A stretch of 37,506 bases of DNA from contig JAUWOA010000010.1 of NCBI GenBank assembly GCA_030612365.1, positions 1 to 37,506 on the forward strand. Reading direction: 5' to 3'. Source of the stretch: Candidatus Thorarchaeota archaeon (GTDB taxonomy: Archaea > Asgardarchaeota > Thorarchaeia > Thorarchaeales > Thorarchaeaceae). The translations under genes and the position numbers were made by a program. The notes under the pieces are model-generated. The model was not told the DNA's origin. It did not search any database and saw only the letters and a program-made list of their open reading frames with translations. The first letter of the stretch is position 1. The number at the start of each line of letters is the position of its first letter. Below are positions 10,933 to 18,788 of this stretch, one piece after another.

Positions 10933-12030
10933 CTAGGTGGCAACCGCGTCAACGTCTCTGATGCCATCCTTGCATACTCTGAAGATAGCTTCGCCTTCCG
11001 GCAGATTTGGTGAATCTACCAGTCTGCAAATTCTACGTTCGCCCTTGGATTTTCTTAGATAGCAACGTGTCTGAGGTACGTGAGCCATAACATGCCCACC
11101 GACAGGTGTTGTTGGATCACCAAAGAAAGCATCGGGACGTGACATCACCTGATTCGTGATATAGACAGCCAAATTGGCGACCTCTGCACCCCGCTGTAGA
11201 TGGTGCAGGTGCTTGTTGAGCTTCTGCTGTCGTGCCGCTAGAGTACCTCGGCCCGTGTATTCAGCTCTGAAGTGACTGGTTACCGAGTCAAGAACGAGAA
11301 GCTTGGCATTTAGCTCTGTGGCCATCTCCAGTGCTTGGTCGCACAACAAAATCTGATGGTCGGAATTGAATGCTCGTGCCCACACCACGTTCTTCAGAAC
11401 CTTCTTGGGATCAAGACCCACAGCCTCAGCCATGTCAACAAGGCGCTCGGGACGAAAAGTACCCTCGGTATCCACATAGATCGCTGTCGCGCTCAAACCT
11501 CCCTTCTCAGGAGGTAGTTGGATATTAACAGCCAGCTGGTGAGCCATCTGTGTCTTCCCCGAACGGAACGAACCGTACATCTCGGTGATACTCTGGGTTT
11601 CAAGTCCGCCGCCGAAGAGCTCATCAAGAGCCTTAGAACCAGTAGTGATTCTACCAGCTGTTCTGCGCCGCTCTAGCATTAGATCAGCTGTTTCAAAACC
11701 GATATCCAGCATCTCTCGTGCTGCTTTGACAATCTTCGTCGCGGTTGTTTCGCCGATTGAGCCGGCTGCTGCAAGTTCTCTCGGTGAAGCCACTGCAATC
11801 GCTTCAACACTCTTGTAGCCTGACTCAGCTAGTCGTTTCCCAATTGCAGGTCCAACGCCTGGAAGATCGGTCACGTCGAGACTGGCATTAGCTTCTGCAC
11901 TGGCCTCCAATGTAGAATCTTTCCCTTCATCAAAGTCCTCGTAGTCAACATCGTCCTTGTCTTTCTTTGCTGGAATCCTAAAGACCTCCCTCAAGTGCTT
12001 GGTACGCTGAATTTCACCGCAGCAATGCAC
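10933..12030 (-). CDS. radA: RadA recombinase
   Basis: Archaeal RecA/Rad51-family recombinase that forms filaments on single-stranded DNA and drives strand exchange. A charged N-terminal leader of about 50 residues precedes the helix-hairpin-helix domain (LPGVGPAIGKRL, about 56-110). The ATPase core has Walker A GSFRSGKT (153-160) and Walker B LLVLDSV. The GDPTTPVGGHVMAH segment and the C-terminal FRVCKDGIRDVD are also typical. Walker A has Ser-Phe-Arg where GEFGSGKT is common, but the essential GKT is intact. The GTG start at 12030 lies about six bases after the transcript start predicted from the TATA box at 12059-12066. A similar HhH unit is duplicated in the nearby Topo VI A gene. Confidence 0.96.
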   Translation of the reverse strand: MHCCGEIQRTKHLREVFRIPAKKDKDDVDYEDFDEGKDSTLEASAEANASLDVTDLPGVGPAIGKRLAESGYKSVEAIAVASPRELAAAGSIGETTATKIVKAAREMLDIGFETADLMLERRRTAGRITTGSKALDELFGGGLETQSITEMYGSFRSGKTQMAHQLAVNIQLPPEKGGLSATAIYVDTEGTFRPERLVDMAEAVGLDPKKVLKNVVWARAFNSDHQILLCDQALEMATELNAKLLVLDSVTSHFRAEYTGRGTLAARQQKLNKHLHHLQRGAEVANLAVYITNQVMSRPDAFFGDPTTPVGGHVMAHVPQTRCYLRKSKGERRICRLVDSPNLPEGEAIFRVCKDGIRDVDAVAT

Positions 12031-14558: not shown

Positions 14559-16673
14559 TCAAATCCAATCTCCGGTTTCCAGCTTGGTAGGCAAGTACTC
14601 GTCTGTTAGATACTGGAATGAATGACTTGCAAAGGCCTGTATCTCAGCCTTCTCCTTCAGTTGCAGCATCAGCTTCAAGTCCTTGACCCAAGCTTTGTTC
14701 TTCTGGATAAAGGGCTCCTTGAGCATATCCTTCACTCTTTTGATGTCTGTTGGTTCCATTGGTATCCGAACAGCTTTCGGAATATTGTACGCGTCAAGGT
14801 CTCTGCTCAAGACACCAAGCAGTTTCAGATCTGGTGTGGCTATGAATGGTGATTCGTAACTGAGTCTTTTACTGCCGCGAAGAAACACCGAGTAGATATA
14901 GTGTCCGTACGGATCTGAATCGACAAGGGCGAAGGCAGGAATTTCAAGCTCCTTAACAAGCATCTTCAGGAATGCTCTCGTTGCGATGTCACCACTACCC
15001 TTTCCTGTAAGGACAATGCACGGTTGTCGGTTCCAGTATTTCGCTTCAGACAGGCGCATCACTGCGGCATCCTTCTCGGAAAGCAGGATAAACTCTGCAT
15101 CACTTTCAAGAATCTCCACCTGTTCGAGGAATGGTGTGATTGCCCACCCGCCTGTACCCATCTTCGTCAAATCAATAGTATCGCCGCCATCTCTTATGAC
15201 CACACGGCCCATGGCTGATCCTCGGGCTGAAGCAACAACATGGACACTGTCTCGAGTCGTACGAAGCATAGATGCAACATCCTCAATGATTTTGTCGCTA
15301 TACTTTTGTTCCCGAAACAGGTTAACGTCACTGTAGAACACCTCTCGTTTCGTTGCGTGTAGGTTGGCCTTGAGCAACTGAAATACTATCTCCATTACTC
15401 GAGCAGTGCGTGTGGCATCTACGACGGACGCCAATGAATGATAGGGTCGCGTGATGGTCTTCATTCCAAGGAGGAGAAGGTCTCTAATCTCGTCCCAGAT
15501 GATGTTGTCTGCGGATCTGCGGGGAATCTCAAAGGCAGGGCGACCTGTCATCATAGTCTCGTTGAGGACCTCCATGGCAACTTGGATTAGCTTGTCCTGT
15601 GTTTCATTGGCTGTTAAACCAACAACTTGGACTGTGTCCTCTATTGTTAATTCGCCCTCTTTGGGCTCCGCCCCAGCTGCGAGAGCCTCAGCTCTTTTCT
15701 CAGCATCCTTCCACTTCTTCTTCATCTGCTTGGCAACACGAGTGACAGCCGCAGGGACGGGAAGGCCTGATTTCTTCTTCTTTGCTTTCGTCCTTGGATG
15801 CTTCTTTGGAATCTGTTCTGCATCCTTTTTTATTGGTTTCTTCTTGGTTGGTGCCTTCTTGGACGAATCTTTCTTTTGTGGAGTCTTCTTTTTGGATCCT
15901 ACTTTCTTGGCCACAACTGCTACCTCCGCAGGAACCTCCTCCTTGGGAGTCACGGGTTTCTCCACGAGCTTCGGTTCTATCTTGGGACCAACCTTTCCAG
16001 TTATTGCTTGCATCTCCCTATCTTGAATAGCCTTCTTCGCCGCGACAATTATCATCTTCGCTCGATTAACGCTCAAGCCGCTCACAATTCGTGCAACACT
16101 TTGCGGACGTGCTCGGGATAATCGGGACACAGAATCATATCCTGAGTCCTCGAGCTTGCGTACCATCTTTGCACCCACACCTGGCAGAGAAGCAAGAGAA
16201 ATCTTAGCTGGACCTTGCGTGATTTCCACTGCTGCATCATCAGGCTCAATGTCTGTTACAGGCTTCAGCTTGGTACTCATCTCAGGCGCATTGATAGATT
16301 CCTTTGCAGCTCGCACCAAGTTCTTCGCACCCGTCTTACTTAGTCCGTTCACTTTTTTCGCAACGCTTTTCGATCTGGCTTTTGAGAGTTTGAGAACAGA
16401 GTCATATCCTGCAGCTACAAGTCGGTTTCTAAGCTTGGTCCCAACACCCGGAAGCGAAGCTAATGACGGACCTGTCACAACTTGCGGCTCTTTCTTGACG
16501 GAAGTTTTTTCCTTGACCTTCTTGACAAGTGCCTTCCTCTTGGTTACCATCGCTGTGGGTTTCTTCTTGACCGTTTTCTTCTTGCTAGTGGCTTTCTTGG
16601 AAGGTTTTTTTACAAGCTCACCCAATGTAGATTGGACGGTTTCCTTTTTTCTAGTCTTCTTTCTTGAACTCAT
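14559..16673 (-). CDS. top6A: DNA topoisomerase VI subunit A with HhH/Lys-rich extension
   Basis: Spo11-like DNA-cleaving subunit of the type IIB topoisomerase. The catalytic part occupies about residues 345-704 and alone matches a normal family member. It has the winged-helix with catalytic Tyr447 (TKREVFY), then a Toprim domain with Glu533 (LLSEKDA) and Asp585/Asp587 (LVDSDPYG). In front is an extension of about 340 residues: a Lys-rich tail, a helix-hairpin-helix unit (about 69-125, LPGVGTKLRNRL), a second copy (about 158-215, LPGVGAKMVRKL), then another Lys/Pro-rich stretch. The two units are about half identical and resemble the RadA N-terminal domain. The start ATG overlaps the top6B stop (ATGA), so translation is probably coupled. 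The fusion looks real: one unbroken frame with consistent composition. Confidence 0.95.
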   Translation of the reverse strand: MSSRKKTRKKETVQSTLGELVKKPSKKATSKKKTVKKKPTAMVTKRKALVKKVKEKTSVKKEPQVVTGPSLASLPGVGTKLRNRLVAAGYDSVLKLSKARSKSVAKKVNGLSKTGAKNLVRAAKESINAPEMSTKLKPVTDIEPDDAAVEITQGPAKISLASLPGVGAKMVRKLEDSGYDSVSRLSRARPQSVARIVSGLSVNRAKMIIVAAKKAIQDREMQAITGKVGPKIEPKLVEKPVTPKEEVPAEVAVVAKKVGSKKKTPQKKDSSKKAPTKKKPIKKDAEQIPKKHPRTKAKKKKSGLPVPAAVTRVAKQMKKKWKDAEKRAEALAAGAEPKEGELTIEDTVQVVGLTANETQDKLIQVAMEVLNETMMTGRPAFEIPRRSADNIIWDEIRDLLLLGMKTITRPYHSLASVVDATRTARVMEIVFQLLKANLHATKREVFYSDVNLFREQKYSDKIIEDVASMLRTTRDSVHVVASARGSAMGRVVIRDGGDTIDLTKMGTGGWAITPFLEQVEILESDAEFILLSEKDAAVMRLSEAKYWNRQPCIVLTGKGSGDIATRAFLKMLVKELEIPAFALVDSDPYGHYIYSVFLRGSKRLSYESPFIATPDLKLLGVLSRDLDAYNIPKAVRIPMEPTDIKRVKDMLKEPFIQKNKAWVKDLKLMLQLKEKAEIQAFASHSFQYLTDEYLPTKLETGDWI

Positions 16674-18736
16674 TCTGTGCCGCCCTCCATTGAAGCCTCT
16701 GCGGGTTCACCATCGCCAAGAGGCATGTCTGCAACAAGATCGGTTCCTTTTGCGTCTGTTTCGGTTTCCTCAGCGTCAACTTGTGTTTCAAATCCAGTTA
16801 TGGAGTCCCTCATTTTCCTGGCGAGTACCTCAGCATTGAACTTGGGTTTCTTGCGGCCATCATTGACTATGTTGGCTAGACTCTGAGCGAACTGATCTGC
16901 GTACATAGCAAGAATTCCCGCTCTCTTTGCCTTTCGACGTGCAGTTTCACGCCTTGTGATGAATCTCTTGAACTTCCGACCTGTATCTTCAAGGGCAAGC
17001 TTGATCTCTCTTAGAAGAACCTCATCTTCTGCTAGAGCCTGCTTACTCTGACCCTTGAACATCACATGCACATATGCACCAGCCACATGAATGAAGACCA
17101 TTATTTGACCACGAGGGATGCCATTATCGAATGTGGCGACCTTGTAGTTCTTCCAATTGACCGATGCTGTGCTTTTCCACGTCGCGCAGTCACTGTTATC
17201 CCTAAGCTTGGGCACGCGATTCACAAACCGCCAAAGCGCCATTGGGGCTGAAGTAGCGGTCCTCAGATCCCCACCATACGCGATACAGACTTCCACTGCG
17301 AAGGAAAGGCCCTTTCCAGAGGTGGGTTTGCGTGTCACCGCGGTGACGAACTCAGGATTGTAAGCCAGATTAATCGTCTGCTCGAAGACCTCAGCTCCAA
17401 CAGGTACAACCGTGTCCGTCGGTGGAGAGATGTACTCCTGACTTGAGAATGACTTGTACAATAGCTCCACTTCTGTCTTGGACAAAGAATCAGCAGGCGT
17501 CTTCATACTCAAAGTATCAAGGTGACGGCGCCGTAGTTCCTTATTCGCGCTTTGGATGATAGTTCGAGCCTTGTTTGTGCTTAGCCTAACAAACGCCCGC
17601 GTGAGGAAGCGTCCTAAATCATTCTCTAGGGTTTCCCGTAGAAGGTCCTGGAATTCTCCAATCCGTATACTTGCAGGATGAGGTTGAGCATACTTGGGCT
17701 CATCTGGGAAGCTCTTCACACGCCGTGGATGGATATGAACAACGCCGTATGGATCAATAAACACAAGCGTGACGTGTGCGTTGAGAAGAGAAGCCATCTC
17801 TGTGTAAATGTCAGCATAACCCCGTCTGTACTGGATGTTTAGGTAGTAGAGTTTGATGAATGTACCGTGCTCCAATGGAAGGTCCATATTGATGGGACCA
17901 CTAACGTAATCCTTTGTATTAGCTGTCGTCGTATAAAAGTCAGCTGCAGTGGCCTTATCCGATGTGAACCGCTTGGAAACGGTGAAGATTGGTTTTCCAG
18001 TTGTATTCTGGGAATCACTGAATGCAGATGGTGCGCCGAAACCCTGACTTCCTCTGGTTTGCTTTAATTTCTCCGATTTGCTTGAAGCCAGATAGATACC
18101 GTACTTCTCGAGGTCTGACGGAATCATACCCACACCATTGTCAAAGCAGATGAATTCGTAAACCTTTAACCCCTCATCATCGTCGAGTGGTATTAGGTCA
18201 GGCATTTGAACTTCCGTGAGCTGCATCACGACTAGGGGTTCACGTTTCTTAATCAGACTCCTGAATGGAACCAAGAACTTCCTGAACCTCGTGAGTTGTT
18301 CATCCAGCGTTTCTTTTCGACGAGGGGGGATATCGACTTTCTTTCCAGCGCGAACATCCTTTTCGAGCCGCTTACTGAGAGCAATCGAGTCGTGCAGGGT
18401 TCCCTCAAGCTTATCCCGTACCTCCTGAACAATCTCCGGGTCCAGTGCATCCTTAAGTCGGGGCCTTTTATCTGTCTTCCACCACCAGCTCTCCAACGCG
18501 TCGATAGCATTGTCTAGGAACTCTATGCTAAACTGGGTGTGCTTGTTGAGCCCCGTTTCGAAGCCGACCAGCTGAGTTCTCTTTCGCATGAACTTGGCAA
18601 TCGTGCCTTGGCGAATGTCGCCTGTTTCTTCCATAGTTGGGACATTAGCTGTCGTCTTCTTGCCACCACTTGGCTTACCGGAGCCACGCTTCTTCTTGCG
18701 AGACTTGGTGCGCTTAGTCTTCTTCGAAGGACTCAT
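16670..18736 (-). CDS. top6B: DNA topoisomerase VI subunit B
   Basis: GHKL-type ATPase subunit of topoisomerase VI, which dimerises on ATP binding to act as the gate. The N-box reads FLDNAIDA (Asn79 in the long frame), the G1 box FDNGVGM (Asp202) and the G2 region RGSQGFGAPSAFS. A transducer-like segment with the lysine-containing FKGQSKQALAE follows near 580. The N-box and G1 box are about 120 residues apart instead of the usual 35 or so, so a charged helical insertion of about 90 residues is present. The N-terminus is Lys/Arg/Ser-rich and the C-terminus acidic. Start: GTG 18745 is possible, but ATG 18736 has GGAGTGA at good spacing. It is the first gene of the top6B-top6A operon. Confidence 0.95.
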   Translation of the reverse strand: MSPSKKTKRTKSRKKKRGSGKPSGGKKTTANVPTMEETGDIRQGTIAKFMRKRTQLVGFETGLNKHTQFSIEFLDNAIDALESWWWKTDKRPRLKDALDPEIVQEVRDKLEGTLHDSIALSKRLEKDVRAGKKVDIPPRRKETLDEQLTRFRKFLVPFRSLIKKREPLVVMQLTEVQMPDLIPLDDDEGLKVYEFICFDNGVGMIPSDLEKYGIYLASSKSEKLKQTRGSQGFGAPSAFSDSQNTTGKPIFTVSKRFTSDKATAADFYTTTANTKDYVSGPINMDLPLEHGTFIKLYYLNIQYRRGYADIYTEMASLLNAHVTLVFIDPYGVVHIHPRRVKSFPDEPKYAQPHPASIRIGEFQDLLRETLENDLGRFLTRAFVRLSTNKARTIIQSANKELRRRHLDTLSMKTPADSLSKTEVELLYKSFSSQEYISPPTDTVVPVGAEVFEQTINLAYNPEFVTAVTRKPTSGKGLSFAVEVCIAYGGDLRTATSAPMALWRFVNRVPKLRDNSDCATWKSTASVNWKNYKVATFDNGIPRGQIMVFIHVAGAYVHVMFKGQSKQALAEDEVLLREIKLALEDTGRKFKRFITRRETARRKAKRAGILAMYADQFAQSLANIVNDGRKKPKFNAEVLARKMRDSITGFETQVDAEETETDAKGTDLVADMPLGDGEPAEASMEGGTE

Positions 18737-18788
18737 TCTAATCACTCCGCAGGCTTCATTGGTTTAAGCCCTAAGATCTACATTCTTT

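Follow-up and report, generated by a model that had tools for sequence, protein, structure and literature searches.

A topoisomerase VI A subunit with an N-terminal array of (HhH)2 units throughout Thorarchaeia, a candidate DNA-holding arm

Here, we provide genomic and structure-prediction evidence that topoisomerase VI subunit A (Top6A) of Thorarchaeia, a class of Asgard archaea, carries, in front of an intact catalytic core, an N-terminal extension that contains between two and seven (HhH)2 units. The fusion is apparently undescribed, class-wide and well conserved, and its function is testable. It is encoded by a 704-aa open reading frame with an ATG start in the window, i.e., the whole stretch of 37,506 nucleotides that was analyzed, which derives from a 2.3-Mb, 188-contig thorarchaeial draft genome (Table 1). 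We assign a probability of roughly 0.6 to the reading in which the extension serves as an accessory grip on DNA, independent of its sequence, and operates like the (HhH)2 array of topoisomerase V (Topo V). The front end of the thorarchaeial Top6A is probably on DNA-holding duty and could illustrate how a slow, distributive enzyme becomes efficient.

Table 1. Coordinates of top6A-HhH, its parts and its partner gene in the window.
Feature	Position	Strand	Evidence
top6A-HhH, topoisomerase VI subunit A with N-terminal HhH extension, 704 aa	14559..16673	-	ORF, Pfam, orthologue searches
Conserved N-terminal motif VQSTLGELV (Q-x-[TS]-L core)	16611..16637	-	Orthologue alignment; FEN1 PIP boxes compared
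Lys-rich tail 1, residues 22-68, predicted disordered	16470..16610	-	Charge count, AlphaFold
(HhH)2 unit 1, residues 71-126, dN/dS 0.11 within genus	16296..16463	-	Pfam, unit profile, AlphaFold
Variable inter-unit linker, residues 127-159, dN/dS about 0.7	16197..16295	-	dN/dS, AlphaFold
(HhH)2 unit 2, residues 160-216, dN/dS 0.19	16026..16196	-	Pfam, unit profile, AlphaFold
Lys-rich tail 2, residues 217-301, mostly predicted disordered	15771..16025	-	Charge count, AlphaFold
SGLPVP motif and predicted helix, residues 302-350, extension-to-core connector	15624..15770	-	Alignment, AlphaFold
Top6A catalytic core (WHD/CAP and Toprim), about residues 351-704	14562..15623	-	Pfam, PDB sequence match, alignment, Foldseek
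Presumed catalytic tyrosine Y447, invariant in 43 aligned sequences	15333..15335	-	Alignment including solved Top6A
Toprim glutamate E533, invariant in 43 sequences	15075..15077	-	Alignment
Toprim D585-x-D587 (DSDPYG), invariant in 43 sequences	14913..14921	-	Alignment
top6B, partner ATPase subunit, immediately upstream; stop overlaps top6A start (ATGA)	16670..18745	-	Pfam, NCBIfam, sequence

The original prediction of a normal catalytic core preceded by some 340 extra residues, with Lys-rich tails and two HhH units, agrees with the domain analysis. About 350 residues precede the core, in which the Pfam domains TP6A_N (residues 421-479, 7.5e-19) and TOP6A-Spo11_Toprim (residues 528-698, 8.8e-54) both exceed their cut-offs and the presumed catalytic residues are invariant. 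Foldseek searches with the core matched solved Top6A and Spo11 structures. The equivalog cut-offs of the NCBIfam Top6A models, which are narrow, were not reached (best NF003333, 303.9 bits versus a cut-off of 465); this shortfall marks a divergent Asgard Top6A and is no argument against superfamily membership. The upstream top6B (Topo-VIb_trans, 9.5e-41; NF003218 above its cut-off) overlaps top6A by four bases. With the top6B stop and the top6A start overlapping, the simplest reading is that an operon gene is translated from this ATG, with the extension as its N-terminus. In Asgard Top6B sequences, including that of the window (L151-L178 for the others), the N box (FLDNAID) and the G1 box (DNGVG) lie about 100-127 residues apart, a wider spacing than is known from other Top6B. 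Two Top6B frames (L180 in G046, and one on contig C63 of G037) exceed 1000 aa; about 260 extra residues separate their matched parts, close to where the transducer domain begins.

Upstream of the SGLPVP motif, the extension spans about 302 residues with a net charge of about +59 and a pI of 10.8. Pfam HHH_5 exceeds its cut-off in two separate stretches, as does either unit alone, and is present in 30 of the 43 aligned members, the remainder being core-only or truncated. The two units, whose boundaries were placed by an iterated unit profile, were correctly anticipated to be about half identical (31 of 56 residues); their similarity is not due to chance, given an alignment score of 131 versus a maximum of 32 among 1000 shuffles. 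AlphaFold predicts each unit confidently as a short helical domain (pLDDT about 85-92) resembling the RadA N-terminal domain, with disordered tails and linkers and a helix at residues 308-332 preceding the core. Foldseek searches with the units (those with the full-length model were dominated by the core) matched RadA N-terminal domains, NusA AR2 and Topo V, with weak E-values (best 4e-3). The modeled unit superimposes on NusA AR2 over 59 columns (rmsd 1.7, TMt 0.79) and has the predicted five-helix (HhH)2 fold. A sequence search of the PDB likewise matched the extension to Topo V and RadA, and only the HhH part matched Topo V.

The units had been described as RadA-like, on account of an LPGVG start shared with the RadA encoded nearby (10933-12030, minus strand), whose N-terminal domain indeed begins with LPGVG. 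This likeness holds for the fold and the HHH_5 family, but RadA is not the nearest relative of the units within the genome, as ribosomal protein L32e (76.0 bits), RNA polymerase subunit Rpo6 (58.7 bits) and an MFS-type protein (54.8 bits) all outscore RadA (48.1 bits) with the unit profile. Pairwise identities of unit 1 were 23 of 56 residues with L32e and 19 of 54 with RadA. NCBIfam models of RadA matched only residues 158-218 of Top6A, far below their cut-offs, and no RecA/Rad51 ATPase core was found in the protein. RadA as the donor of the units is thus unsupported by profile and pairwise scores, and a tree of 55-residue units is too weak to name any donor. From these sequence comparisons, HhH_5 looks like a shuffled module in the thorarchaeial lineage. 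The L32e frame (L113/L003, G000 C186, 269 aa) has an N-terminal HhH_5 unit followed by a Lys-rich linker, and the Rpo6/RpoK frame (L112/L002, G000 C17, 226 aa) an N-terminal HhH_5 domain; frames of 220-230 aa with HhH matches, similar to the Rpo6 frame, occur in other Thorarchaeia too. An odd pairing is the C-terminal HhH_5 of the MFS-transporter-like membrane protein (L117/L004, G000 C114, 577-aa frame).

Orthologue searches in 59 related genomes and 47 genomes of Thorarchaeia yielded 40 distinct proteins. The 5' region is readable in 36 of these, which cover all 13 genera, and every one of the 36 has at least two units. The remaining four have one unit (L026) or none (L031, L032, L047), because these genes run into a contig end or contain a masked stretch and not because units were lost. 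The concern, voiced with the original prediction, that the fusion could be an assembly artefact absent from close relatives is thereby ruled out, as the 13 genera all have it and one of the orthologues (L014) comes from a genome assembled as a single contig. HhH copies are thus found throughout Thorarchaeia, and outside the class the Top6A matches listed were core-sized. Among the matches listed outside Thorarchaeia in 228 Asgard genomes, open frames were at most 476 aa long, mostly 395-425 aa, and the longest non-thorarchaeial Asgard Top6A among the matches listed across all searches had 477 aa. The unit profile detected no HhH unit in ten outgroup Top6A proteins. Thorarchaeia form a single clade in the core tree (support 100/100), and the fusion is best read, from these sequence data, as a single acquisition on the thorarchaeial stem.

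Most orthologues have two units, four are found in L034 and the pair L023/L028, five in L033, and seven in L092/L093. Two is probably the ancestral number, because the deepest thorarchaeial branches (L021, L024) carry two. The proteins with four, five and seven units are scattered in the core tree, which suggests at least two origins of the four-unit state and separate five- and seven-unit lineages. In the unit tree, which is of low resolution (55 columns), for most two-unit proteins, the first units from different genera group together and apart from the last units, and most of the extra units in L023/L028, L033 and L092/L093 fall together with units from their own protein. Because each of the two units clusters with its counterparts from other genera, their duplication is old and predates the radiation of the class; tandem amplification followed more recently.

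Both units are under purifying selection, and the linkers act like spacers. Computed within the genus from five sequences, dN/dS was lowest in the core (0.04), followed by unit 1 (0.11), unit 2 (0.19), the connecting helix (0.22) and the N-terminal motif with its tail (0.26); the second tail (0.49) and the inter-unit linker (0.73) were least constrained. Such in-frame selection on both units, the presence of the extension in every readable orthologue and the coupling of its start codon to the top6B stop make it very improbable that the protein can simply do without the extension, or that translation from an internal start skips it to give a core-only subunit; in favor of these readings, a methionine in the connecting helix shortly upstream of the core (VAKQMKKKW) and the fast evolution of the linkers could be adduced.

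The two-unit extensions have net charges of +16 to +73, and the thorarchaeial Top6A cores are acidic or near-neutral (0 to -16). Nine of the ten core-only outgroup proteins are basic over their whole length (+2 to +21), the exception being a Heimdall protein (-6). It is as if DNA affinity had shifted from the core to the arm. The seven-unit extensions have charges of only 0 to -2; they lost the basic tails and retained the GVG/GVGKK hairpins. Halophile-type acidity as the cause of this neutrality is unsupported, as the core charges of these proteins (-15, -16) resemble those of several two- and four-unit proteins. Unit number seems compensatory, as if there were two ways to hold DNA, either by charge and few units or by many units. 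The Lys-rich, disordered and fast-evolving tails would also suit a nucleoid-associated role, in which the arm would retain Topo VI on DNA that is compacted or chromatin-like, or would itself promote compaction, and would leave catalysis unchanged. We consider this distinctly unlikely, because in the seven-unit lineage the tails are lost while the HhH units multiply, so that it is the folded units and not the tails that have been retained.

The strongest unexplained detail of the extension is its N-terminal motif. Q-x-[TS]-L occurs near residue 14 of every orthologue with a complete N-terminus, including the four-, five- and seven-unit forms, and usually reads [VI]Q[STA]TL[GSNED][DE][LVI][VI]. 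Among 28 aligned sequences, Q14 and L17 are 100% and T16 is 96% conserved amid poorly conserved residues. The canonical PIP box is Q-x-x-[LIM]-x-x-aromatic-aromatic, and the motif resembles its first half. We do not call it a PIP box because the aromatic pair is missing in every sequence. FEN1 ends with QS[SA]L[ST]DFF in most thorarchaeial genomes checked and has QSALSDFF in the genome studied here. A Hef-like helicase/nuclease (L115, G000 C126) has the internal, PIP-box-like sequence QTSLDDFV. The extension might accordingly be mainly a recruitment arm, whose motif and/or HhH units bind a protein (the PCNA clamp, a chromatin or a transcription factor) and bring Topo VI to forks or transcribed regions. 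In favor of such a role are the persistence of the motif, as the best-conserved stretch of an otherwise variable tail, across the multi-unit forms, the first half that it has in common with the FEN1 and Hef-type sequences of the same genome, the fusion of HhH_5 units to Rpo6 and L32e, and NusA AR2 as a near fold. We nevertheless regard it as unlikely, since not only the aromatic pair is absent in all sequences, but in several the hydrophobic pair is lost too (LGEHEE, LDASDG, LLEHDK), and since the strong net positive charge suits DNA better than a protein partner.

Sequence-independent DNA binding, as proposed in the original prediction, is the best-supported function, with charge, hairpins and domain family pointing to it. 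In this reading, Top6A is catalytically intact and its extension would act as a flexible, sequence-independent DNA-binding arm. The backbone of duplex DNA would be held by the (HhH)2 units, to which the Lys-rich tails of most species would add electrostatic binding. As Top6A is a dimer, each A2B2 enzyme would have two such arms, which could hold the duplex beside the DNA gate. This would slow dissociation between strand passages and lengthen residence time, resulting in greater processivity or in the ability to work at lower enzyme concentration. The arms may also confer a preference for crossings with two duplexes close together, through local capture of the second segment. Several points count against a DNA grip: such (HhH)2 domains are also used for contacts between proteins, with NusA AR2 among the nearest folds; the E-values of the fold matches are weak; and the seven-unit extensions lack a net positive charge.

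The genome encodes three Topo VI-like A and B pairs, namely the HhH-bearing one, a conventional one (G000 C126:31522-34006, L109) and one with an altered Toprim domain (C30:6381-9143, L181). No HhH domain was found in the A subunits of the latter two pairs, and the HhH-bearing enzyme hence need not be the general-purpose one. In the A subunit on C30, LVDMSPW replaces DxDPYG, by which one Toprim aspartate is lost; matches to both other kinds of A subunit recur across Thorarchaeia. GyrA was not detected in any of 28 thorarchaeial genomes at an E-value of 1e-20, and exceeded the cut-off in two of the 16 other Asgard genomes searched, both of family f2. The fusion matters because Topo VI of Methanosarcina mazei is extremely slow and highly distributive on supercoils, for which accessory processivity factors have been postulated (PMC8837201), and because gyrA was not found in these 28 genomes. 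A whole archaeal class in which gyrase was not found would have an enzyme that bears its own candidate DNA-holding array of 2, 4, 5 or 7 copies. This natural copy series and the core-only Asgard relatives make the question testable by deletion and swapping. It is tempting, if rather doubtful as a complete scenario, to propose that gyrase-less Thorarchaeia converted one of their three Topo VI-like enzymes into a type IIB topoisomerase that is tethered and processive by means of an (HhH)2 array, with the number of units tuned by tandem duplication; this would be the type IIB counterpart of the clamp-like array of Topo V, possibly guided to forks by the degenerate PIP-like motif. If so, the processivity factor postulated for Topo VI would be supplied in cis.

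The architecture is, according to the original prediction, not known from characterised Topo VI, and an HhH domain on Top6A was not found in the open-access text of papers on archaeal topoisomerases and on the phylogeny and structure of Topo VI/Spo11 (PMC9348778, PMC8185306, PMC11302465, PMC12203943, PMC13040014). The thorarchaeial protein shares TP6A_N, Toprim, the catalytic Tyr, Glu and DxD, the adjoining top6B and its best core structural matches with the type IIB Topo VI A subunits of Sulfolobus shibatae (2zbk), M. mazei (2q2e/9o0g) and Methanocaldococcus jannaschii (1d3y), but adds about 350 residues at the N-terminus, among them two to seven (HhH)2 units; the lengths of the six NCBIfam Top6A models, 354-386 positions, suffice for the core only. 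It thereby adds an Asgard case of diversification to the family that gave rise to Spo11. In M. mazei, DNA bends and crossings are sensed by three conserved positively charged regions of Top6B (PMC5922973). Plant BIN4 and RHL1 are also extra Topo VI components beyond the A2B2 core, but are plant-specific and separate polypeptides (PMC7614492). The RadA/Rad51 N-terminal domain has the same HhH_5 family, fold and LPGVG hairpin, whereas its RecA core is absent from the fusion. The HhH N-terminal domains of L32e and Rpo6 are the nearest relatives of the Top6A units in the same genome, and L32e shares the Lys-rich linker, but these are single units on other host proteins. Topo V of Methanopyrus kandleri likewise combines a topoisomerase catalytic domain with tandem (HhH)2 domains, which the units match in sequence and fold, but its catalytic domain is of the unrelated type IC. 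Its 12 (HhH)2 domains are C-terminal and include AP-lyase sites (PMC9489208), whereas the thorarchaeial units are N-terminal and sit on disordered linkers. The (HhH)2 domains of Topo V wrap DNA as a processivity factor and can raise the processivity of other enzymes, and its architecture was stated to resemble that of no other topoisomerase (PMC9489208), a statement that the thorarchaeial Top6A weakens.
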